From Simmondsia chinensis (Eukaryota; Streptophyta; Magnoliopsida; Caryophyllales; Simmondsiaceae), in contig JAGTTD010000007.1 of assembly GCA_018398585.1 (NCBI GenBank), positions 11,958,320-12,022,319 on the forward strand: DNA of 64,000 bases, read 5' to 3'. Positions 19,641 through 55,934 of the stretch are shown one piece after another. The notes below the pieces were generated by a model. That model ran no database searches. It worked only from the letters and a program-made list of their open reading frames with translations, and was not told the DNA's origin. The stretch's first letter is position 1, and every line of letters begins with the position of its first letter. The position numbers were made by a program, and so were the translations under genes.

Positions 19641-20077
19641 TGTTATGATTCAAGATGATTCTTGGATCATAAACTATGACAGAAGAATTTGGGATGAGAA
19701 GAGAAATGAAATCAAGATGAGAATTAGAAGAATATAGATGAGAAGTAGAGAGAATTAGAGTTGAGAGAGAAAAATAGAATCAATATCATTTATCAATGAG
19801 GATTATGAGACAGTCATCTACTACTTATACTAACCTGAAGCTAAAGTTAGCTAAGCTAGATACATTGCACATGGACTCCTAAAGCTAACCGACATTAATC
19901 ATCCTAGTCGCCATTCTTGACCTTCAACTAACATTTGACTCACTTGACTTACACAAGAGGCTAACAAAGCTAATTAAGCTAAGACTAAGGAATTATACTA
20001 GTTATTTACAAGCTTATGAATTATTGGTAATTACTTTGTACTTAATTCCATGAGCCCCATTTGTATGAATCATGACA
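19641..20077 (-). repeat. B 3' LTR (437 bp)
   Basis: Pairs with 26432-26858. The minus strand begins TGTCATGATTC and ends AATCATAACA. On that strand 19778-19682 is a C/U-rich stretch (ttctctctacttctcatc type). Confidence 0.9.
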
Positions 20078-20091
20078 ATATTCCCCCCTTT
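20078..20091 (-). other. B polypurine tract
   Basis: The minus strand reads aaaggggggaatat next to the 3' LTR start TGTCATG. Confidence 0.75.
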
Positions 20092-20587
20092 AAATATTCT
20101 TGTCCTTAAGAATCTTAATAGAGAAGTTACAGTCTTGAAAAACTCTTGATGTTGATCTTGTCACAAGATGTTAAACGCCTACTGTGGCTAACATTTAATC
20201 TTCAACAATTGATGCTGATGTCATGAACACAATATTCCCTGGTCCGTGACAATGCCAAGACCGTGCCCAGGACGCTGCCCAGGCTTGTCATGGTCGCTGC
20301 CAGTGCCATGCCCAGCCTTGTCAAGACAATGCCTAGTGCGCTGCCCAGTCCCATGCCCAGCCTTGTCAAGACAATGCCAGAGCCTGTCCCAGCCCGTGGC
20401 CAGGGCCGTCCCAGGCCTGCGTCCCCAACGACCCTGTCCTATGCCGCCCTGCAGCCTAGCCCCTACCTAGGACGCTCCTCCCTTACTAGCCGTTTGAAAG
20501 ATTCTCCTTTTGATATTATTCTAGATTTAATTGTTGTAACTGATAATTCTAGATATTATTAGATATTTTAGTATTTTGTTATATTTC

Positions 20588-20595
20588 TATAAATA
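20588..20595 (+). promoter_or_regulatory. TATA box of G 5' LTR
   Basis: Sequence tataaata in the context ctataaatagg. The same box is at 23003-23010 in the 3' LTR. Transcription would start roughly 30 bases downstream, just before the C/T-rich tract, placing that tract in the 5' end of the RNA. Confidence 0.7.
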
Positions 20596-20644
20596 GGCAT
20601 TTGTAATTCATTTGTACAGAATCAATTGACAAATATATGAAATA

Positions 20645-20770
20645 TCTCTTTCATTCTCTCATCTAATTCTCTATTCTCATCTAATTCTACTTCTCTCTCA
20701 TCTAACTCTAATTCTTTCTCTCATTTGAACTCTATTTGTCTTTCTTTTCTCACCTAACCTCTCTTTCATT
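20645..20770 (+). promoter_or_regulatory. C/U-rich tract in G R/U5 region
   Basis: About 125 bases nearly free of G, made of repeated tctcatctaattct and ctctttc motifs. The second copy is at about 23059-23184. Such RNA is the classic target of PTB proteins (UCUU, CUCUCU). Related tracts occur in the LTRs of A, B and C. Confidence 0.65.
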
Positions 20771-20820
20771 TGGGCCCAAGTCTTGTACTTTGGCCGTCAC
20801 ATCCGCGAGACTGTGACGAA

Positions 20821-20840
20821 TTGGTATCAGCGTAGTTGCG
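20821..20840 (+). other. G primer binding site
   Basis: ttggtatcagcgtagttgcg lies two bases after the 5' LTR. tggtatcag is the usual tRNA-Met type PBS start. Confidence 0.8.
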
Positions 20841-21098
20841 ATCAAGGGCCACGTTCTATTCTGCATTGAAGTGAAGGTAATCCCAATTGTTGTAAGAAGT
20901 GTTGTGCAAGTTGGAACGATCAAGAAAATTCTCATGATACCCATTTTGTGACCAAAAATGGTATCATAGCATGTTATGAGCAAGAGGGTATAATAAAATT
21001 AAAAAAAAATTCAAGAATTCAAGGTTGCCTTGCTGCCGTAGTTGAGTACGCCGTTGCTTCCTCAATGTTCAAAAAAATGGTTCAAGAATTTTGGTGAG

Positions 21099-21507
21099 AT
21101 GGCCACGTTATTCGTTAAGGTATCCGAAACCCTTTATCCCATTACCGGTGATGTTATTTGTAGAGTTTTTCTCTCCTTTTGGGTGTATTGCAAAAATAAA
21201 GTACGTCTTTGTGACTTCTCTTAGAGTGGAAGTCCATGTGACTTACACCTCGAGAAATGATGCCGAGAGTGCTTGTAGGTGCTTGCACGGAAGGAACATC
21301 TACAATTATTGTTGTAAAATGGACATCCAAGTATCCACGCCTCCTAGGAACATTACAACCATAGTTTTCTCTACTTTTGATGTCACAACCGAGAGTAATG
21401 CAGCCATAAGGGAAAGGGTAGAGAAGTCGGAAATCTGGACCTGTGATGTGAGTGAGTCCGTAGATTCATTTGCAAGTAAGGAGTTAAAAGCTACATCGAG
21501 TCTTTAG
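21099..21507 (+). pseudogene. PTB-like RRM protein of element G
   Basis: From the ATG at 21099 the frame reads MATLFVKVSETLYPITGDVI. After a 1-2 base shift near 21170 it continues SPFGCIAKIKYVFV, then VTYTSRNDAESACRCLHG, then GRNIYNYCCKMDIQVS (about 21287-21340), ending at a stop at 21505-21507. The pattern LYPxT-DV---VFSP-G---KI followed by GRNIY--CC--DIQ is that of an RRM of the polypyrimidine tract-binding/hnRNP-L family, where GRNIYDGCCxLDIQ is a hallmark. Classic Phe/Tyr RNP residues are weak, as is usual for PTB RRMs. It is the first coding segment after the PBS, where gag should be. Confidence 0.75.
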
Positions 21508-22057
21508 CCAAACGTGTTGACCATTACCTTGAAAGCCAAGGAGAAAAGCTTAATCCTCCACAACCTCAATTGCCTTGTCACTTGGTAGAAAAGTCAAGGG
21601 TCTTAACCAAAGTGAGGAACCAAGAGAACCGAGACCAGAAGAGTCAAAATTCACTTTGGAACTGCAAGATCTCCAAGATACGGTTTGGGCCAGCCAACGT
21701 CAGCAACCGGTTGTGCCCCACGTTGACAAACCACAAGAATTGGGGATTGGTGATGCCCTATCTACGCCGGACAAGCCATTCTTACAAGAACTGCCTGTTG
21801 ACGTTGAGGATGAACCGGAGGAGTCCCCCTTGGTTGAGGAAGCACATGAGCCATCAATGGGGGTAGCAAAAGTGCTCATGGAACACATGGTACCTGAAGC
21901 ATCCGAAGGTGACACCCTGTTCCTTGAGTCACCACAACCTAGGGACAAGCCGCAAGTTAAAAGCACCGAAGCCGCTGTCAAGGATCCCTACCTTGAGCTT
22001 CCCATGCCAAGGCTTAGGCCAACGGAAGGTAATGACATACGGACAGTAGTACAGTAG
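21508..22057 (+). pseudogene. Pro/Glu-rich protein of element G
   Basis: A segment in a shifted frame reads ESLAKRVDHYLESQGEKLNP (about 21497-21560), a short helical piece. Then 21575-22057 is a long open frame of about 160 codons, rich in Pro, Glu and Leu (for example VDVEDEPEESPLVEEAHEPS), ending at a stop near 22055. No domain is recognised. It probably continued from the RRM in one protein before frameshifts. The composition suggests a disordered acidic region. Confidence 0.5.
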
Positions 22058-22492
22058 CAAGAGACGCAGCGGCAACGTGGTGGGTCGCACATAAAGAAGG
22101 GAATCGGGCTGAAAACTAAGAAGAAGAAGGGCGGGTCATGTGAATGCTTTCCAAGAACCGAGATCAGAACTAAATCTTCAAGGGCCCGAGTCATCCATCT
22201 TGGCAGCAACAACTCGTTGTTGAGCAAGTAAGGGCATTTAGGGACTTTGGACCAAGGGCCGTGAAAACACCTCTTTGGGAATGTTTCCCAAGAACGGGAA
22301 TTGGATCCAGAGTCTTCAAGGGGTCGAGACGCTCAACTTGGCTTACGATCCTTGAGGACAAGGATCATCCATTCGACCCGGGAAAAGAGGTAAAGGATAT
22401 GGGCAATAATAGGGTCACAAAGGGGAGAACAATCAAAAGGGATCCGGGAGCTGAAGGCCGCACCGTCATCGCATCCTTGAGGACAAGGATGA
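22058..22492 (+). other. G 3' untranslated region with 75-bp imperfect duplication
   Basis: Two similar pieces, about 22142-22205 (gaatgctttccaagaaccga...) and 22276-22345 (gaatgtttcccaagaacggg...), form an imperfect direct repeat. Near the end ccttgaggacaagg occurs twice (about 22350 and 22472). Confidence 0.55.
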
Positions 22493-22509
22493 ACTTAAGG
22501 GGGCGGGAA
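22493..22509 (+). other. G polypurine tract
   Basis: Sequence taagggggcgggaa directly before the 3' LTR start TGTCATGG. Confidence 0.8.
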
Positions 22510-23233
22510 TGTCATGGACACGATATTCCCTGGTCCGTGACAGTGCCAAGACCGTGCCCAGGTCGCTGCCCAGGCTTGTCATGGTCGCTGCCAGTGCCGT
22601 GCCTCAGCCTTGTCAGGGTCGCTGCCAGTGCCGTGCCCCAGCTTGTCATGACATTGTCCCAGTGCGCTGCCCAGTCTGTGCCCCAGCCTTGTCATGGCTT
22701 TGTCTCAGTCGCTGCGAGTGCCGTGCCCAGCCTTGTCAAGACAATGCCCAGTGCGCTGCCCAGTCCCATGCTCAGCCTTGTCAAAATAATGCCAGAGCCT
22801 GTCCCAGCCCGTGTCCAGGGCCGTCCCAGGCCCACGTCCCTAGCGACCCTGTCCTATGCCGCGCTACAGCCTAGCCCGTGCTTAGGATGCTCCTCCCTTA
22901 CTAGCAGTTGGAAAGATTCTCCTTTTGATATTATTCTAGATTTAACTGTTGTAATTGATAATTCTAGATATTATTAGATATTTTAGTATTTTGTTGTATT
23001 TCTATAAATAGGCATTTGTAATTCATTTGTAAAGAATCAATTGACAAATATACGAAATATCTCTTTCATTCTCTCATCTAGTTCTCTATTCTCATCTAAT
23101 TCTACTTCTCTCTCATCTAACTCTAATTCTTTCTCCCATCTAAACTCTATTTCTCTTTCTTTTCTCACCTAACCTCTTTTTCATTTGGGCCCAAGTCTTG
23201 TACTTTGGCCGTCACATCCGTGACGCTGTGACA
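22510..23233 (+). repeat. G 3' LTR (724 bp, expanded GC-rich array)
   Basis: Pairs with 20219-20818 but is 124 bp longer, because the GC-rich array (about 22535-22880) has extra units. Ends ctgtgaca followed by TSD gctga. Confidence 0.93.
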
Positions 23234-23371
23234 GCTGACTTCGAAACTTGAAGTTGTTTATTGACTTGCATGTCTATTGCAACAACTTTAGATCTCAATT
23301 CTACTCTTATAGCTTCTCCAAAATCCATTTCTAATTGATTTTTTCACACCTACTGCGGCCTTGCTTTTGTT

Positions 23372-23851
23372 TTATGCAACATGATTTGAGAAAAGCTTGC
23401 AAATCTCCTCCCATTTGAGAGGTTTGACTACAAATTTACTACTACTCTTAATCAAGGCGTGAATATGCTTGAGGCTTTGGCGATTTTCACAAGTTTGCAT
23501 ATCATTATCCAAATTCCTCTTTATGTATTTCCAATTTACTATCGCAATAACAGAACTACAGATTCCAAAACCAAATAATGTTTCAGCATATAAGAGTTCC
23601 TCTTCATGTCTTTGCATACCGCAACTGTTAGTGTCAGCAAACCACATAACTTCTGATGAAGCCCAACCAATGTAATGCTTCTTTGTGCACAAACTCGGCA
23701 TATACTTTTGAGCAATTAGAACTTGGGCTTGAAATTTGTGAAAGCTATCCAAGCATGACAAGTTCTCTAGTGCCATAGCAGAACTCCAGTAGAAGTGATT
23801 CATATTTGAACTTTTAAGCAAGTCCAACACTCTTGACTTGGCCCATAACAC
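23372..23851 (-). pseudogene. B unrecognised reading frame 3
   Basis: Open frame of 159 codons on the minus strand in the downstream part of B. It contains SSAMALENLSCLDSFHKFQAQ, WASSEVMWFADTN and a Cys/Trp-containing C-terminus. It matches no family I recognise. It lies within the element in the same orientation as the RRM, so it may be a remnant of a longer B protein, but composition and length alone do not prove it was coding. Confidence 0.3.
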
Positions 23852-24308
23852 CTACATATCATATTCTTCTCAAAGCCTTCAGCCTCTGCCTCTTTTAGAT
23901 TCCAACAATCGAGTAAACTTTACAAATTCCACTGGTTTTGATGAACTTTGCTGAGCTGCTGCACAAACGTATCAATTAGGAATGCTCTTAATCTCAAATT
24001 TAGCTCCTGATCAAATTCAGCTTGTTGCTTGTTATTGAGTTGTCCAGTAGCTATATTCTCCTCACAATCCTTTTCAAGGTGATCTTGTTGCTTGCAAAAT
24101 GAGGCTGCTGCTTACCCAGTTTATCTACTTGCAGTTGGAGCAAAAGCTAAAGGAATTCAAGAGGCCTTACATTGGCTTGTACCCTTGAAGGATGCCCTTT
24201 GCCCTTTATTTGATTCACACCAACACCTAGCTCCTGATCCAACATCTCTGCTAGTTCGAAAGCCAACAAAATCAGCTTGCATTGACATTTTAGTCCAAAC
24301 TTGAACTC

Positions 24309-24551
24309 TTAATTGCCACTGTATACCATCCACTGAACCTTTCTCTCCTTGTTTCTCACTATGGAGCCAGTTTTAAGCTCAATTCTTTCACTCCTTTGGC
24401 TCCAAGGATGAGGTTGATCAACCAAAGTGTTTTCCAACATTAATTCTCTACTGAATTCTTCCCTACTGAATTTGACAATTTTCTCCACTATCCTTGGGTC
24501 AGGTGGCCTATTGTTAGTGTTCATAGAAGAATAAACACTAACCGCACTCAA
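24309..24551 (-). pseudogene. B unrecognised reading frame 2
   Basis: Open frame of 80 codons on the minus strand with RPPDPRIVEKIVKFSREEFS and HPWSQRSERIELKTGSIVRN, ending MVYSGN at a stop. Composition looks protein-like. It sits 85 bases after the preceding frame (24636-25115) and may be a shifted continuation. No domain recognised. Confidence 0.35.
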
Positions 24552-24635
24552 TGGAGCCCTCCATTTGACCTGATCTAGCCTAATTCTCAGCTGAATTAGA
24601 GCATCTCCTTACACTCGAATAAGATCAGACCAATT

Positions 24636-25115
24636 CTATGTTGAGTTTGCTTGCATTGTTGTAGTATCAACTTTATTTCTTACTGATTTTGTGTCATTGC
24701 TCATTGAGTTCCACCTCTTTCTTGCCAATTTTATTGTCCTTTTGATCCATGAGCAAGTCCCAAGTCTATCAATTGACATAAACACTACATTGGGCTGCTT
24801 GAACTTCATATTCTTGAACATGAAAAACTTTTCAAGAACCACTTTATTTGACTTAGGAAGAAGAAATGCTGGAGGATTTCCCTTGTAGACCAAGATTGGC
24901 TTGATCCATGCTCTTAATTTCTTGCTTGAAATGCACTTCTTGCGGCTTAATTGAAGGACAAAACGAATCTCAGAACTTTGCTGCAATTTGAGCTTTAACC
25001 GCAATTTCCTGATGCTCAAAACTTCAACAGACACTTGCACTTTCTCTGCTGCAACAATTGGATGCTCTACCTTCACCATATGCAATTGATCTTGCCTCCT
25101 CAAAGGCTTAATCAC
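24636..25115 (-). pseudogene. B unrecognised reading frame 1
   Basis: Open frame of 159 codons on the minus strand, basic, with RKLRAWIKPILVYKGNPPAF, LLPKSNKVVLEKFFMFKNMK and RTIKLARKRWNSMSND. The mix of aromatic and basic residues looks like real protein sequence. It follows the RRM segment by about 350 bases, in the same orientation. No family recognised, and no RT, protease or integrase motif. Confidence 0.4.
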
Positions 25116-25465
25116 TTCCTTGAGCTAAATTTCCATATCAACTCTTGATTCCACCACTGCAACATCCAATTGCACCAAAGGATGTTCATGTCCAGCAGGT
25201 TGATATATTGCTTCATCAAACTTATCATTATTTTGCAAGACTTGCTACTAAATTGGCATTAATTTGATTGCTGAAAGATACGATGTACTGCTGCTATCTC
25301 AATCTTATCTTGAATTTTCAAATCATGTTGCTGCTGCACCAACTCTACCTGATCCACTGAGTGCAATGTTGCATCATCCATTTGATGTGCTACTGCAGCT
25401 TCCAGATTCAAGCTGATTCCAGCACTACCAGTCACGTTTTTCTCAAATCCTTGCTCAATTCTCTG

Positions 25466-25835
25466 CTACGAGTTCTGATTAACTCCCCAAGTAACATTAA
25501 GTTCCTCCTTAGCTTGACAATTAGTAGGTCCTGTCACCTCAAGCTCCCCTTCCATATCATTACACATCTTGGGGTAGTTTATGTCTAAAACACAACATTC
25601 ATCGTATATATTTCTCCTGCATAATGAATAGAAGGCTAAGTCGACACTCCTTCTCTTATAATTGCTAATATCAGCAGTAACCAATAATGAAAGATTACAC
25701 CACTTTGATACTTTCAAGAGGACCATAAGCCCAAAATACTTGGTAAAGAATATCCTCATCTATATGGTAAAAAGGCTTCAAGACTTCAATCAAAGGTCTA
25801 GCACCATTGGAAGGTTTAACTTGAACCGAAGCTGG
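25466..25835 (-). pseudogene. PTB-like RRM protein of element B
   Basis: On the minus strand from about 25835: VKPSNGARPLIEVLKPFYHI, DEDILYQVFWAYGPLESIKV, then a shift near 25715, then ADISNYKRRSVDLAFYSL and CRRNIYDECCVLDINYPK (25625-25570), with the frame ending near 25466. The spacing and the pair FYxIDEDxLYQVFxxYGxLExI and RNIYDECCxLDI fit an RRM of the PTB family. It follows a leader of about 0.6 kb after the PBS, in the gag position. Upstream ATGs exist (for example 26034), but no continuous frame links them. The copy is broken by the shift and stops. Confidence 0.75.
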
Positions 25836-26417
25836 ATTGAACTAATGCAGAATTGCATATTGTGACATTTTGTCAAACTTCTCACAAGATCACATGAGTT
25901 AGCTACGAGATCGCACTAAGAGCAAGTTTTGAATTGAATTATTGATCAATTCAATCCAAACTGCATAATTAGCACCAATACAGCTGGATTTACATTATCC
26001 TTTATTGAATCAGTGAATGCATCAGCATCCATTTCTGTCTAACACAATTCAACAACTTCAGGAACTGCAAGAACTTTGGGAACTTGGCAGATAAACAAGC
26101 AATCTAACACAATTCAGCTCAATTCTGTTGAACTGAGAGTAACTTCAGCTGGAATGAAATACAGAAGCTTGATTCAAGGTTAATTTCAGTGAGTTCAAAT
26201 ATAGATTTAGCTAGATCAATGCAATTTTTAGGTAAATCGATGAGCTTGTACCAGATTTTAAAAGTTCAATGATCACAAGTTCAGGACACAGAACTCAAAC
26301 AGTCTGAAACCTGGAGTATATGCGATACAAGCAAATGAGATAATATCAATCAAGCTTGATCTAGTGCTAATTCAATCAATTGAATGCAATTCAACTCAAT
26401 TGGAAGAAAAATCACAA

Positions 26418-26431
26418 GCTCTGGTACCAGT
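26418..26431 (-). other. B primer binding site
   Basis: The minus strand reads actggtaccagagc directly after the 5' LTR end AACA. This matches the tRNA-Met type PBS tggtaccagagc. Confidence 0.88.
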
Positions 26432-26858
26432 TGTTATAATTTAATATGATTTTTGGATCATAAACAAGGATAGAAGAATTTAGGATGAGAAGAGAAGTGA
26501 AATCAAGATGAGAATTAGAAGAATATAGATGAGAAGTAGAGAGAATTAGAGTTAAGAGAGAGAAATAGAATCAATATCATTTATCAATAAGGATCACAAG
26601 AGAGTCATTTACTACTTATACTAACCTCAAGCTAAAGGTAGCTAAGCTAGATACATTGCACAAGGACTCCTAAAGTTAACCGACATTAATCATCCTAGCC
26701 GCCATTATGTACCTTCAACTAACATTTGACTCACTTGACTTATACCAGAGGCTAATAAAGCTAAGACTAATGAAGTATACTAGTTATTTACGAGCTTATG
26801 AATTAATGGTAATTAATTTGCACTTAATTCCATGAACCCCATTTGTAGAATCGTGACA
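26432..26858 (-). repeat. B 5' LTR (427 bp)
   Basis: Pairs with 19641-20077. On the minus strand 26572-26473 is C/U-rich (ctctctaattctctctacttc type), close to the PBS, so it would lie at the 5' end of the RNA. Confidence 0.9.
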
Positions 26859-27089
26859 AGTTCAATCCTTCTTCTCTGACTCTTTTTATTTTAGTTGTTT
26901 AATTATCTTGTCTCAAGTCTATTTGCTTTAATATCTTTTATATAAGGTCTTCTATTGAACTTCCTCTCTAAGTCGGTTTAAGTTTTATTTGGGCCCCTTC
27001 TTGAGTTTACCTCTAGCATCTCGAGCTTCAAATTATGAATACCCATTTTCCCTATTTTTCTGAACAATGTAAGCATTTTGTTAAACAAA

Positions 27090-50354: not shown

Positions 50355-50684
50355 TGTTAAGTTCGAGATTAAATCTTGAACTTAACCTAAGAAATTAAGA
50401 GAATTTGGGATAAGAAAGAAGGAAAGGGGATGAGAAAATAGAGAGAATTAGATGAGAAAAGAAGTTTTAATCACAAAGGATTAATTGATATTTCATTGGA
50501 TCATCTTTTACAAGCTAATCAGCCACTATTTAAAGAGCAAATAACAAAACAATTAACAAGGAACACACACTCAAATTCCCGCCAAAACACAAAATGCATC
50601 CTAACCGCTAACTAACTTTGGCGCCCAAAACCAGTTTAAACAAATACAACCCGCCTTATGAATTACAACTCGATAAACATAACA
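50355..50684 (-). repeat. A 3' LTR (330 bp)
   Basis: The minus strand begins TGTTATG and ends CTTAACA. TATA-like tttaaatag on the minus strand near 50535-50527. The C/U-rich stretch is at about 50465-50395. Confidence 0.96.
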
Positions 50685-50699
50685 ATACCCTCCCCTTAG
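50685..50699 (-). other. A polypurine tract
   Basis: The minus strand reads ctaaggggagggtat just before the 3' LTR. Confidence 0.85.
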
Positions 50700-50712
50700 A
50701 AAATTCTTGTCC

Positions 50713-51648
50713 TCAAGAAATAAAAGAAGGAAATTGGCTCAACAAAAAATGTTTATCTTCCCATGTAGTGAAAGATTTGTCCAGGTTGCACCAGCTGACT
50801 CGAACTTGCTGTCGGTTGGAGACATTGGGACTGACTTGCTGAACTTCTTCCACTGCTGTAGGTTGTAGGAGCAAAGAGCTATTAGAACCCACCTCCGGGG
50901 ATGCTGAGGCCTTATGTCCATGCTTAACATGCTTCTTAAGAAGTGAAACATGGAAAATAGGGTGAATATATGAATCGGTTGGAAGCTCTAGCTTGTAAGC
51001 CACCTTGCCAAGCTTTTCCAAAATCTTGTAAGGTCCAAAGAACCGTGCACAAAGCTTGACATTCTTTCTTACATCTGCTGTAGATTTCCTATAAGGTTGT
51101 AGTTTCAAATAAACCATATCACCCACTTCAAAATTTCTGTCTACCCTCTTGCAGTCAGAATACAACTTCATCCGGGCCTGGGCATGACTGAGGTTCTGCT
51201 TTAAGAGCTGCATAAGGTGTTTCCTTTGCTGTAACAATTCCGTCACTTCAACCACTTGTGTCTCTACTCCTTGCAACAACATTGGATTGGGTGGATCATA
51301 CCCATACAATGCCTTGAAAGGTGTTGTGCCCAAAGAAGCATGGAAATGAGTATTATACCAATATTTTGCCAATGAGAGCCACCTACTCCACACCTTAGGA
51401 TGGCTAAATACCAAGATTCTAAGGTATTGTTCAATGCATTGGTTGACCCTTTCAGTCTGACCGTCGGTTTGAGGATGGTAGGCTGAGCTAAGGGCTAATG
51501 TAGTCCCCAAGAGACCAAACAACTCCTTCCAAAAGCAACTTGTAAAGAGCTTGTCCCTATCTGAAATTATGGAATGAGGCAATCCATGAAGCTTGTAGAT
51601 GTTATCAAGGAATACACGAGCTAATTTCTCTGCAGTAACTGGTTGAGC
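50713..51648 (-). pseudogene. A integrase C-terminal half with degenerate chromodomain
   Basis: After an in-frame TGA at about 51647 the integrase continues: SIISDRDKLFTSCFWKELF (second catalytic Asp) and SSAYHPQTDGQTERVNQCIE (catalytic Glu), then the C-terminal GPY/F region (FFGPYKILEKLGKVAYKLEL, HPIFHVSLLKKH). It ends with VSWCNLDKSFTTWEDKHFLL, a weakened chromodomain core, and a stop near 50713. Gag-Pol was originally one long frame, so this piece is the tail of the same polyprotein as 52346-54019. Confidence 0.92.
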
Positions 51649-52330
51649 TCAAGCCGTGAAATGACCAGTTTTGGTGAACCGATCTACTACCACCCAGATC
51701 ACCTCTTTTCCCTCGGATTTGGGCAAACCTTCAATGAAGTCCATACTTATATGCTGCCATATACCCTCTGGAATAGGTAAAGGTTGAAGAAGACCTTGGT
51801 ATCTATGATCACCAAGCTTAGTTTTTTGACAAATGTCACAGCCTTGCACAAATTCAGTCACTTCTTTCTTCATACCGGGCCAATTGAAGTGAATCTTCAA
51901 CCTTTGATATGTTCCCTCAATGTCGGAATGACCACCCCATGCAGAATCATGAGCAGTACTGATAATCTGATGTCTCAATTCAGTATTGATGCCAATGTAC
52001 AGCTTTCCCTGGATTCTAATTATTCCTCGGGTAACAGACACCACAGCACCAGAAGCCTGATTAACAGTCTTGTTCATGCTAGCAGCTGCTACGCATTCTT
52101 GAGCAAATGAATCATTCTCATAGGACTGATATACTTCTTCCATCCAAGCAGGCAAAATTACAGAAATTGCCCCAAGAAAACCCTGCTCGAGGTCCTCAAA
52201 TATGCGTGACAGGGCATCTACTGCTATGTTTTCCTTGCCTTTCTTGTACTCGATATCATAATCAAGCCCAAGCATCTTCATCAACCCTTTTCTCTGTAAT
52301 CTTGTGATAATTTTTTGTTCTAACAAGTGC
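51649..52330 (-). pseudogene. A RNase H end and integrase N-terminal half
   Basis: LLEQKIITRLQRKGLMKMLG and KKGKENIAVDALSR finish RNase H. The integrase zinc finger follows (HDSAWGGHSDIEGTYQRLKI then CDICQKTK, a complete HHCC) and the start of the core with SMDFIEGLPKSEGKEVIWV (first Asp). It ends at TGA near 51647. Upstream a single-base insertion and a TAG separate it from the RT segment. Confidence 0.93.
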
Positions 52331-52345
52331 TTGAGACTCTAATGA

Positions 52346-54028
52346 TCATGTCTTGATGATAAAATGATACCCATCCAAGTACTGCCTCCATTTTTCCACC
52401 GCGAGTAAAATTGCAAGATACTCTTTTTTATATGTGGATAGAGCTTGATGTTTTGCACTCAAGGCCTGGCTAAGATAAGCTATGGGCCTTCCTCCTTGTG
52501 ACAACACTGCCCCAACACCATTTCCACACGCATCAGTTTCTAACACAAAGCTTGAAGTGCAGTCGGGCATTGCCAAAACAGGTACACTGCACATTGCTGT
52601 TTTAAGAGCTTCAAAGACATTTTGAGCTTCCTCCGACCATCTGAAAGCTTCTTTCTTTAACAATTCAGTAAGTGGCTTGGCTATAGCTCCATAACCTGCT
52701 ACGAATTTGCGGTAATACCCTGTCAACCCCAAAAAACCCCTTAGTTGCTTTAAGGTCACCGGGACAGGCCAGTTTTTCATGGCTTGGACCTTTGATGGGT
52801 CAGTGAAAACCCCATCACAAGAGATTATATGACCAAGGCATTCCAAGTGAGTTTGAGCAAAAGAACATTTGGCCAACTTAGCATACAACTTATGCTCGTG
52901 CATGACCAAGAATACTTCTCTCAAGTGCTTCAAATGCTCCTCGAATGTTGAACTGTAAATCAAGATGTCGTCAAAGAAGACCAACCCAGATTTTCTAAGA
53001 AATTTCTTGAAGACATCATTCATAAGAGCTTGGAATGTAGCTGGTGCATTTGTCAAGCGAAAAGGCATGACTACAAACTCAAAGTGACCATGGTGAGTCC
53101 GGAAGGCTGTCTTGTGCACATCTTGCTCATTCACTCTAATTTGATGATAGCCTTGCCGTAAGTCCAGCTTGGAAAAGACATGGGCTACATACAATTCATC
53201 TAACAAATCATCTATAACTGGTATAGGAAACTTGTCCATAACCATCATAGCATTCAGCTGTCTATAATCAACACACATGCGAGCCGTGCCATCTTTCTTC
53301 TTGACAAGAATAACCAGGGAAGCAAAGGGGCTGGGGCTAGGCTGTATGAAGTTGGTTTTGATTAGATAATCAACTTGTTTTTCAATTTCTGTCTTCTGAG
53401 CATGGGGGTAACGATAAGGCCTAAGCCTCACCGGTTCTGCATCACCCTTGAGAGGGATAACATGATCTAAACTCCTCTTCGGAGGTAGAGATTGAGGAAC
53501 TTCAAACAAATCTTCAAACTCAGTAACCAAAACCTGCACCTCCGGTTTTGTAATGCTAATTAATTCAGTAGGAGCTACAGCAAATAGCTGGTCTACCCAT
53601 TGAAATGAGCATTTCTTAATTCCTTTCTTGACCCTGCTTCCCTTCATGACCTGCAAGTGTGCTTGCTCTGCTATGCCTTGCAAAGTCACCTTAATTCCTT
53701 GTATCTCAAAGGAAACCGTGAGGTTAGCAAAATCAAATAACATCGGGTTGTAAGTTCTCATCCAATCGACCCCAAGCACCATATCACATCCTCCCAAAGG
53801 AAGGATTCTAAAGTCATAACTGAATTTTCTGTCTTGCATTACCCAGTTGAACCCACGGCATTTGTTTTGAGTGATAACTGATTTTCCATCAGCTACAGTG
53901 ACAGTGAGGGGGTGAGTTTTAATCACCTCATGACCCACCTTCTTAACCACTTTAGGATCAACAAAACTATGGGTGCTACCACTATCAATGAGGATGATGA
54001 AAGACTTTTTACCTGCCATTCCTCTGAT
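52346..54028 (-). pseudogene. A protease, reverse transcriptase and RNase H
   Basis: A 557-codon open segment: FIILIDSGSTHSFVDPKVV (protease, intact DSG), LRPYRYPHAQKTEIEKQV, MCVDYRQLNAMMVMDKFPIP, KLDLRQGYHQIRV, SGLVFFDDILIYSSTF (catalytic FFDD), LGHIISCDGVF, LRGFLGLTGYYRKFV, then RNase H with VLETDACGNGVGAVLSQ and STYKKEYLAILLAVEKWRQY. It ends at a frameshift near 52345. It is separated from gag only by an in-frame TGA at 54029-54031. All catalytic residues seen are intact. Confidence 0.95.
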
Positions 54029-55570
54029 TCAGATCGTGCTGTGGGCACCATTTCCTGTCAAGGCTTTCATTGATATTTTCACAGCTGCATCATCTATGCT
54101 TTCCTCGATGTTCTGATCAGATTCAACTTCATCAGCCTCAATTTCCTCATCATCAGACTGTTCTCCAGCATTAATCCCTTCAGCAGACATGAGAAATTTG
54201 GGATTACACCTGTGGCCAAACTGATAAGGTTGGTTGCAACGGTAACACAACCTCTGCAGTTGCTTATCATCAAATCTGTTGACCCAGTTTTTGACAGAAC
54301 TTGGTTGTTTCCTGGAGCTGCTGCTACGAGGTCTGGCAGCCTCATTTGGAGACAAAATTGTTGATTCATAAAGCTTGGCTTTGGCATAAGCCATAGAAAA
54401 TGTTGTAGGATCAGCGGCTTTAACCAAGTTTTTTCACCCTTGGTTTCAATCCATTAATAAAAGCCGAAACATAATAAGACTCAGATGCTTGAATTTCAGT
54501 TATAAAGCTAACCCGTAGATTCTCAAATTTGGTCATATAATCCCTCACAGATGTCTCTTGCTTCACCTTATTAAATTTATCCACAATATCACTATCATCC
54601 TCATCACTATACCGATCACACAACTCCCTAGCAAATTCAATCCATGTGAAGGATGGATTGCTCTTCGTCAAACTATAAAACCATACCTCATGATCACAAA
54701 GAAGGTATATAGCAGTGATTTGTACCTTCTCTAAATCGTCAATATGGTAGAAGTGAAAGTAACATTCGCACCTCCTTAGCCAAGAATGAGGTTGCTTCCC
54801 ATCAAATGCATCAATCTGCACTCGAGGCTGTCTGTGGCCACTGCTTCTGCTGTTGGTTACCTCCTCATTACTGCTAGAGCGTGGTTGATGCCAATCATCA
54901 GGTGGTCTATCAAGGTGATCCACATTCAATCCTCTCGGCCTGTGTGTATCATCGACTTCATTGGATCGCACACCAGGCCCAGCATTCTAGTTGGAAGTTC
55001 GAGAAATCACATGCTCATTGCGGCCCTGCCTCTCAGTCACTTCAATCTCTGGGTTTCGATCAGGAACTCTCATATCAACACCAGAATTACCCACCAAAAC
55101 TGGCACATTCTGTCTTACTTCATCCCGAGGTCTGATCAGTTGATTTGTTTGCAAGGCACTTGCTGGCAACAATGGATCTGGAACAACGGAAGGAATGGGC
55201 CTCATAACTTGCTCTCTAATCTCAGTGAACTTTTCTTCCAACAGCTGTCTTTGTTGATCGAACCTCTGATTAAATCTTTCCTCCAATTCTTGTGATTGTC
55301 ACGAGACTTGTTCAGCAATTTAGGTTCTACCTGCTGCACCCGTTGATCGACCCTCACCTCAATCTGCTGAGGTAAGGTTTCAGTAAGAACTTGCTTGAAT
55401 TGAGCAAGCATTGTCTCAAAATTACTGTCCATTTGAGCATTTGTCACCTAATCGCGTCCTGCTGCATCACTACCTCCAACACCCTCAGTATTGGACGATC
55501 TAGCAGCTGCTCTTGCTGCTGCCAATCTGGTTGTGACACCACCGATCAACGGAATTTCGTTTGTATCCAT
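54029..55570 (-). pseudogene. A gag
   Basis: ATG at 55570-55568 (minus), 20 bases after the PBS: MDTNEIPLIGGVTTRLAAAR, a TAG near 55450, a coiled region with EERFNQRFDQQRQLLEEKFT, another stop near 54988, then the capsid-like domain (FDGKQPHSWLRRCECYFHFY, SWIEFARELCDRY-like ending) and, after a shift near 54420, a knuckle CYRCNQPYQFGHRC. The tail is acidic (GEQSDDEEIEADEVESDQ). It is the typical Gag of Reina/Tekay-like chromoviruses. Confidence 0.92.
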
Positions 55571-55589
55571 TAATTTGATAGCCAAACGA

Positions 55590-55604
55590 GGCTCTGATAC
55601 CAAT
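55590..55604 (-). other. A primer binding site
   Basis: The minus strand reads attggtatcagagcc directly after the 5' LTR. This is the standard initiator Met tRNA PBS with a two-base gap. Confidence 0.93.
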
Positions 55605-55934
55605 TGTTAAGTTTGAGACTAAATCTTGAACTTAACCTAAGAAATTAAGAGAATTTGGGATGAGAAAGAAGAGAAGGGGATGAGAAAATAGAGAGAATTA
55701 GATGAGAAAAGAAGTTTTAATCACAAAGGATTAATTGATATTTCATTGGATCATCTTTTACAAGCTAATCAGCCACTATTTAAAGAGCAATTAACAAAAC
55801 AATTAACAAGGAACACACACTTAAATTCCCGCCAAAACACAAATTGCATCCTAACCGCTAACTAACTTTGGCACCCAAAACCAGTTTAAACAAATACAAC
55901 CCGCCTTATGAATTACAACCCGATAGACATAACA
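55605..55934 (-). repeat. A 5' LTR (330 bp)
   Basis: Same length as the 3' LTR, about 11 differences. The C/U-rich tract is at about 55715-55645 on the minus strand. Confidence 0.96.

Follow-up and report, generated by a model that had tools for sequence, protein, structure and literature searches.

Long terminal repeat (LTR) retrotransposons that lack reverse transcriptase (RT) are usually seen as protein-less templates, and the question is how their RNA comes to be packaged, in some cases better than that of the partners themselves. The wheat elements RLG_Sabrina_SA and RLG_WHAM (with the autonomous RLG_Wilma) are non-autonomous, high-copy gypsy elements that encode one protein, an ordinary Gag or Gag-Pro, and share LTR ends and a primer-binding site (PBS) with a partner (PMC9744471). 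Barley BARE2 cannot make Gag and is packaged in BARE1 particles, and the portion available mentions no added RNA-binding domain (PMC3735527). The orchid Ty3/gypsy elements with an AlkB m6A demethylase are an LTR lineage with a fixed host-like RNA-directed domain; they are giant, were found by RT, and carry the domain, an enzyme, in an extra open reading frame (ORF) (PMC9289625). LTR elements with captured exons, maize Bs1 among them, are RT-less and contain host sequence without introns, and terminal-repeat retrotransposons in miniature (TRIMs) have no coding capacity (PMC4717578). Here we describe element G, found in a 64,000-nucleotide stretch of the jojoba (Simmondsia chinensis) genome (contig JAGTTD010000007.1, positions 11,958,320 to 12,022,319, forward strand; hereafter the window), and the family to which it belongs.

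The G family is likewise a non-autonomous, high-copy family, probably of gypsy type, that encodes one protein and shares LTR ends and PBS with a candidate partner. In contrast to the wheat elements, its ORF begins with an RNA recognition motif (RRM) of the PTB type, and no capsid was found. It would resemble BARE2 in using the particles of a partner, but it has an RRM. As in the orchid elements, a host-like RNA-directed domain is fixed in an LTR lineage, here an RRM rather than an enzyme, and as in Bs1, the host sequence is intronless; unlike TRIMs, the family comprises several lineages with an RRM under purifying selection. What is new is the presence, in a non-autonomous LTR element, of a host-derived domain that is unusual and under selection. 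The RRM-containing ORF1 proteins of long interspersed nuclear elements (LINEs), such as L1 ORF1p and that of beet BNR, in which a plant LINE ORF1 reportedly contains an RRM, are likewise retroelement nucleic-acid-binding proteins that combine an RRM with a coiled coil or linker. However, LINEs are non-LTR elements, whereas the G family has LTRs, a PBS and a polypurine tract (PPT), and we know of no PTB-RRM2 signature in LINE ORF1 proteins. No RRM-bearing LTR family was found in the literature by titles and abstract openings, a coverage that mostly excludes subscription papers, and the term 'RRM' was absent from the available text of PMC7264820, PMC13317346, PMC12786077 and PMC5408684 and from the main text of PMC9289625. 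In PMC9289625, RT served as the marker for screening 121 genomes, so that RT-less elements were beyond the reach of that screen. A whole class of proteins encoded by elements can escape RT-anchored screens, and annotation pipelines could mislabel copies of this kind as PTB genes.

The host genome (831 Mb in 35 contigs, the window lying on contig C2) was searched for relatives of G. The G RRM segment gave 159 candidates at the DNA level (40 scored; main matches 81-93%), a two-RRM relative gave 2305 at the protein level (150 scored), and the Pfam profile RRM_8 gave 2202 first-look candidates, with all 150 scored above the cut-off. By comparison, RRM_5, which we take to be the PTB RRM3/4 domain type, gave three matches from 49 candidates, all scored, indicating that the RRM_8 type spread and the RRM_5 type did not. 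An earlier reading of the window from sequence alone (the sequence-only reading) had named a one-off capture of the RRM, with all other copies of G lacking it, as grounds for refutation. These grounds fall away, because the window copy, although decayed, belongs to a large family. The main sample of relatives consisted of 20 loci with flanks taken from the scored copies; these are best-scoring matches, so intact copies are over-represented. One further locus, L031 (C22:24507358), was added later outside this sample.

The relatives are LTR elements. LTR sequence flanked the RRM on at least one side in 20/20 loci, and self-comparison placed the RRM within a direct-repeat pair in 18/20 (exceptions, L025 and L026). 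A perfect 5-bp duplication with TG..CA ends was found in 13 of 20 elements (the window copy and 12 of 19 relatives), against 0.006 for random placement. The first RRM was open as it stands at all 20 loci. No protease, RT, RNase H or integrase was detected in the seven relative ORFs scanned, and no element carrying an RRM and pol together was found among the loci fetched. A 9.1-kb LTR pair on C5 looked at first like an autonomous element bearing an RRM, but L055 is read here as an RRM element into which other sequence was inserted. The family also lies outside the TRIM and large retrotransposon derivative (LARD) classes, defined by having no conserved coding capacity, as its RRM ORF is open and conserved, with dN/dS well below 1 at depth.

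Selection was quantified separately for the first (RRM-a) and second (RRM-b) domains by the NG86 method, which saturates at dS above about 0.7. For RRM-a (35 domains, 595 pairs, 56 of which gave no binned value), dN/dS fell with rising dS through 1.28, 0.72, 0.48, 0.37, 0.23 and 0.13, the end bins being dS <0.05 and the saturating dS >0.7. For RRM-b (24 domains, 276 pairs), the corresponding values were 0.85, 0.69, 0.39, 0.29, 0.28 and 0.24. Two stop-containing matches, L016 RRM-b and L043 RRM-a, were kept in these sets. Simulated neutral evolution, in some runs with a strong bias to transitions and CpG changes, yielded values of 0.63-0.98. Changes at the three codon positions numbered 99/105/199 in RRM-a and 74/48/82 in RRM-b, and the RRM frame was open in 34/35 and 23/24 domains, respectively, whereas the other two forward frames were open in none. 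The ratio was thus close to 1 for near-identical copies and 0.13-0.37 for diverged ones, which indicates selection on the RRM protein during the active life of the lineage, so the dN/dS comparison proposed by the sequence-only reading revealed constraint. Judged from these comparisons, the pattern is that of a domain that active elements would require, with inserted copies then free to decay.

Element G itself occupies 20219-23233 on the plus strand, with TG..CA ends. The LTRs, PBS, PPT and perfect 5-bp duplication that had been read from its sequence were all confirmed, and its features are as follows.

20214..20218 (5' copy) and 23234-23238 (3' copy): perfect target-site duplication GCTGA
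20219..20818, plus strand: 5' LTR, TG start, with the terminal A changed to G in the window copy
20588..20595, plus strand: TATAAATA box within the 5' LTR, 50 nt ahead of the CU-rich tract
20638..20779, plus strand: CU (pyrimidine-rich) tract near the predicted RNA 5' end; best 100 nt, 81% pyrimidine
20822..20833, plus strand: PBS after the 5' LTR (ttggtatcag / tggtatcagcg), presumably initiator-Met-tRNA-like
21099..21348, plus strand: PTB-RRM2-like domain (RRM-a) in two frames, frameshift at about 21160-21180
21349..21504, plus strand: linker prolonging the RRM frame up to a stop, with no partner Gag match
21554..22054, plus strand: acidic/proline-rich continuation of the family ORF, in a different frame in the window copy
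22058..22228, plus strand: lysine-rich basic segment of the family ORF
22497..22509, plus strand: PPT aagggggcggga directly before the 3' LTR
22510..23233, plus strand: 3' LTR

The first coding segment had been called a PTB-like RRM, and the profile search bore this out. The ORF at 21046-21504 matched RRM_8 with an E value of 2.5e-9 (37.7 bits; cut-off, 26.2) and RRM_1 with 2.2e-4, and its best solved structure was PTB1 RRM2 (E 5.6e-5), followed by hnRNPL/LL. The N-terminal strand of the domain sits in another frame (21042-21221; RRM_8 0.0089, under the cut-off), which places the frameshift at about 21160-21180. Against intact relatives, the best identity of the two RRM pieces was 81% over 27 aa for one and 94% over 67 aa for the other. 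As also claimed, no gag, protease, RT or integrase was found, nor any RNase H, in the eight window ORFs scanned with Pfam. G is a decayed copy of a large non-autonomous LTR family, probably of Ty3/gypsy type. Its LTRs are 93.2% identical over 533 bp, and a further 188 bp at their start agree at 82%. Based on the 6.8% divergence of the better stretch and the rate of 1.3e-8 substitutions per site per year given in PMC9744471, the age of G would be approximately 2.6 million years, uncorrected. Short GC-rich repeats (CCCAGCCTTGTC-like) occur in the LTRs (20225-20470 and 22516-22860) in unequal number, and the 3' LTR is longer.

In intact relatives, the ORF starts with RRM-a, often followed by RRM-b, and continues through a linker and an acidic stretch to a lysine-rich tail. 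The RRM_8 match reached 2.5e-37 in two-RRM relatives, and the longest stop-to-stop frames among the copies scored were 740 aa (two-RRM protein search) and 745 aa (RRM_8 search). The domain is of the PTB RRM2 type, with PTB1 RRM2 as the best PDB match, but the protein is not a full PTB protein: PTB and hnRNPL proteins have four RRMs, and each ORF scanned had one or two. Copies much alike elsewhere may have or lack RRM-b (identity to the window behind it is 94% for L018 and L019), and the linker of L015-L017 separates their two RRMs instead of following them, so modules have been shuffled. The simplest member was L033, with LTRs 85% identical and a 398-codon open stretch that nearly fills the inter-LTR space. 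No Pfam gag domain (Retrotrans_gag capsid) was found in the eight window and seven relative ORFs scanned, and a CCHC knuckle was present in 0/20 ORFs. Five copies (C18:4103953, C10:25306293, C22:24507358, C2:36948428 and C30:5643529) share an identical 740-aa stop-to-stop frame, perhaps the result of a recent burst; in L031 this frame extends into the 3' LTR.

With regard to the origin of the RRM, the RRM_5 search found one strong host PTB-like exon, at C4:28541113 (exon searches can miss genes). The host RRM2 upstream of it appears to have three exons and two introns with GT/AG ends, as deduced from matches and GT/AG contexts, whereas the element RRMs are intronless. The element RRMs were 36-55% identical to this RRM2 (three group means, 0.42, 0.49 and 0.50), and all 71 of the 71 compared carry a one-residue insertion that neither host nor human RRM2 has. 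The L033 ORF tail is similar to that of L032 (2e-6) and weakly to those of L009 (8e-5) and L024 (0.001), so the fusion seems to predate the split of the lineages. These comparisons fit an old capture, probably via spliced RNA, followed by duplication and a split into several clades. A protein database search for homologues gave none at E values up to 10, from which nothing follows for other species.

A likely enzyme donor is a gypsy lineage with related LTRs. Searching the genome with an RRM-element LTR gave 880 candidates (40 scored) and revealed two related LTRs at C9:22757800-22763825, with 84% identity over 329 bp and 80% over 394 bp. The element between these LTRs, L056, contains gag ORFs, RVP_2 (1e-12), RVT_1 (6e-28), RNase H and Integrase_H2C2 (8e-16), with protease, RT, RNase H and integrase in this order; the RRM elements themselves are without pol. 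L056 and the RRM elements are about 74-84% identical in LTR end, PBS and leader. The gag frame of L056 is broken, and it thus marks the lineage rather than an active donor. The N-terminal part of its gag gave 12468 candidates in the genome (150 scored), indicating that the lineage is abundant. Partner-like pol pieces adjoin the RRM elements in L015, L024 and L025 and are read as nesting or recombination. At L015 3495-8488, an RRM-element internal region is followed by a partner integrase-end fragment (77%) and an LTR 93% identical to the 5' LTR, a possible recombinant of an RRM element and the partner.

In 6/20 ORFs (L010-L014 and L028), the segment behind the RRM was homologous to the N-terminal part of the L056 Gag (phmmer, 4e-16 to 1e-12; BLASTP, 41% over 78 aa with E 8e-15, and another match at 2e-13). 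The linker of L055 is of the same kind by alignment, despite a short ORF without a phmmer match.

A candidate RNA target lies in the LTR. A 100-nt stretch of 75-84% pyrimidine begins 151-176 nt before the LTR end in 20/20 LTRs. The TATAAATA box is present in 16/20 LTRs, and the tract begins 47-53 nt after it (76 nt in L033), so the tract should be near the RNA 5' end. PTB RRM2 binds short CU motifs. The pyrimidine fraction was 0.59-0.70 on either strand in two other direct-repeat pairs of the window (putative LTRs, one copy of each).

We therefore propose, with a probability of roughly 0.45, that the family ORF, with one or two RRMs from the RRM2 of a PTB-like host gene, is an adaptor between element RNA and the particles of the partner. 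The RRMs would bind element RNA, with the CU-rich tract as the probable site; the linker, Gag-derived or other, would dock on partner Gag; the element RNA would thereby be packaged in partner particles; and partner RT and integrase would finish copying and insertion. A fuller scenario is more tentative: an LTR lineage may have dropped Gag-Pol, and a host polypyrimidine-binding RRM, duplicated and in some subfamilies joined to a piece of Gag, may have become a dedicated packaging adaptor that would recognise the CU tract at the RNA 5' end and load the RNA into the particles of another element, giving rise to a long-lived hijacking parasite with several clades and probably thousands of copies. 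The family combines a selected protein of RNA-binding type with a candidate for the RNA target and a partner lineage that can be identified, which makes the adaptor proposal testable by binding and co-assembly.

Several results weigh against this proposal. By phmmer, 14/20 ORFs had no Gag match; at least five of these end before or inside the linker, but the long ORFs L009, L018-L020 and L024-L027 likewise lacked Gag homology, and no match was obtained for the window ORFs, L031-L033 or the short L055 ORF. For the Gag-like segment, dN/dS was 0.53-0.69 between L028 and five relatives and 0.63-0.85 between L055 and the same five; the L028-L055 pair gave 0.30, and Gag itself gave 0.18-0.31 at saturating dS. 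Outside the RRMs, dN/dS was 0.78-1.10 among close copies, so the evidence of constraint is confined to the RRMs. The clade of element RRMs apart from host PTB has a modest support of 0.68. Ordinary gypsy LTRs also have the CU-rich tract (0.78 in the window element at 50355-55934 and 0.70 in the last 93 nt of an L056 LTR), which ruled out the idea that it is unique to RRM elements; the tract thus came with the LTR lineage and is no proof of co-evolution.

The strongest alternative, possible but in our view doubtful, is that the selected RRM protein acts on element RNA before packaging, by affecting its translation, stability or export, by controlling its splicing or by helping it to evade silencing. 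PTB proteins act in such roles on cellular RNA, and the host PTB-type domain, the lysine-rich tail, the position of the CU-rich tract near the predicted mRNA 5' end and the 14 of 20 ORFs without a detected Gag-like segment would all suit such a role. The orchid AlkB gypsy elements offer a precedent for an RNA-modifying extra ORF (PMC9289625). However, a role before packaging leaves the fusion to the Gag N-terminal part in six of 20 copies unexplained.

The sequence-only reading had suggested that the RRM protein might replace Gag as the RNA-binding partner of the element. In its full form, with the protein as an RNA coat like LINE ORF1p that needs partner enzymes only and no partner capsid, this is unlikely. 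The RRM, linker and basic tail do recall LINE ORF1 proteins, and the suggestion stood insofar as no capsid domain or CCHC knuckle was found in the ORFs scanned. However, LTR-type reverse transcription and integrase normally operate inside Gag particles, and the PBS, PPT and 5-bp duplications imply both. The Gag-homologous fusion in six of 20 relatives also fits an adaptor working with partner Gag better than a stand-alone substitute.

It is very improbable that the RRM is a passive passenger that stems from a single capture of a host exon and was amplified without function. The window copy is frameshifted and close copies show dN/dS of about 1, as such a passenger would, and the suggestion of a captured host exon agrees with the PTB-RRM2 kind and the lack of introns. 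Against this, dN/dS was 0.13-0.37 at dS >0.2, compared with 0.63-0.98 in the neutral simulations, frames are open in diverged copies, and changes are biased by codon position; the RRM is carried by a multi-copy family under purifying selection and is therefore not a passive exon. Repeated capture from constrained host PTB genes, with the selection predating capture, could account for the several RRM clades but has an equally slight chance, given the shared insertion in 71/71 element RRMs that group apart from the host, the tail similarity of the deep L033 lineage to L032 and weakly to L009 and L024, and the one strong host PTB-like exon returned by RRM_5.

G was inserted into an outer element (19641-26859, minus strand), which is an RRM-bearing LTR element of another subfamily, with LTRs 89% identical; its RRM had been passed over by the sequence-only reading.

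26432..26859, minus strand: 5' LTR of the outer element
19641..20078, minus strand: 3' LTR of the outer element
25560..25841, minus strand: outer-element RRM, decayed and split between two frames (RRM_8 E 0.0022, under the cut-off)

The best BLASTP matches of the two RRM pieces to other element RRMs were 8e-9 and 5e-10, and among those compared the pieces were closest to L057/L062 and L058/L059. In the genome, the outer RRM region gave 443 candidates (40 scored; 83-91% apart from self) and the outer LTR, with a pyrimidine fraction of 0.81, gave 2255 (40 scored).

Elsewhere in the genome, RRM elements form a tandem LTR-internal-LTR-internal-LTR array (L024 2564-8938 and L025, C4:3836000-3855800), close to gypsy pol pieces, and RRMs are regularly spaced at about 1.7-1.8 kb at C8:11639580-11646668 and C35:35052207-35057912. 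The window also contains a gypsy element at 50355-55934 (minus strand) with 330-bp LTRs 96.7% identical, in which a similar CU-rich tract is present. Its coding region is spread over several frames and includes Retrotrans_gag (3e-10), RVP_2, RVT_1 (8e-30), RNase H, SH3_Tf2-1 (1.9e-22) and, as a weak match, a chromodomain (0.01).
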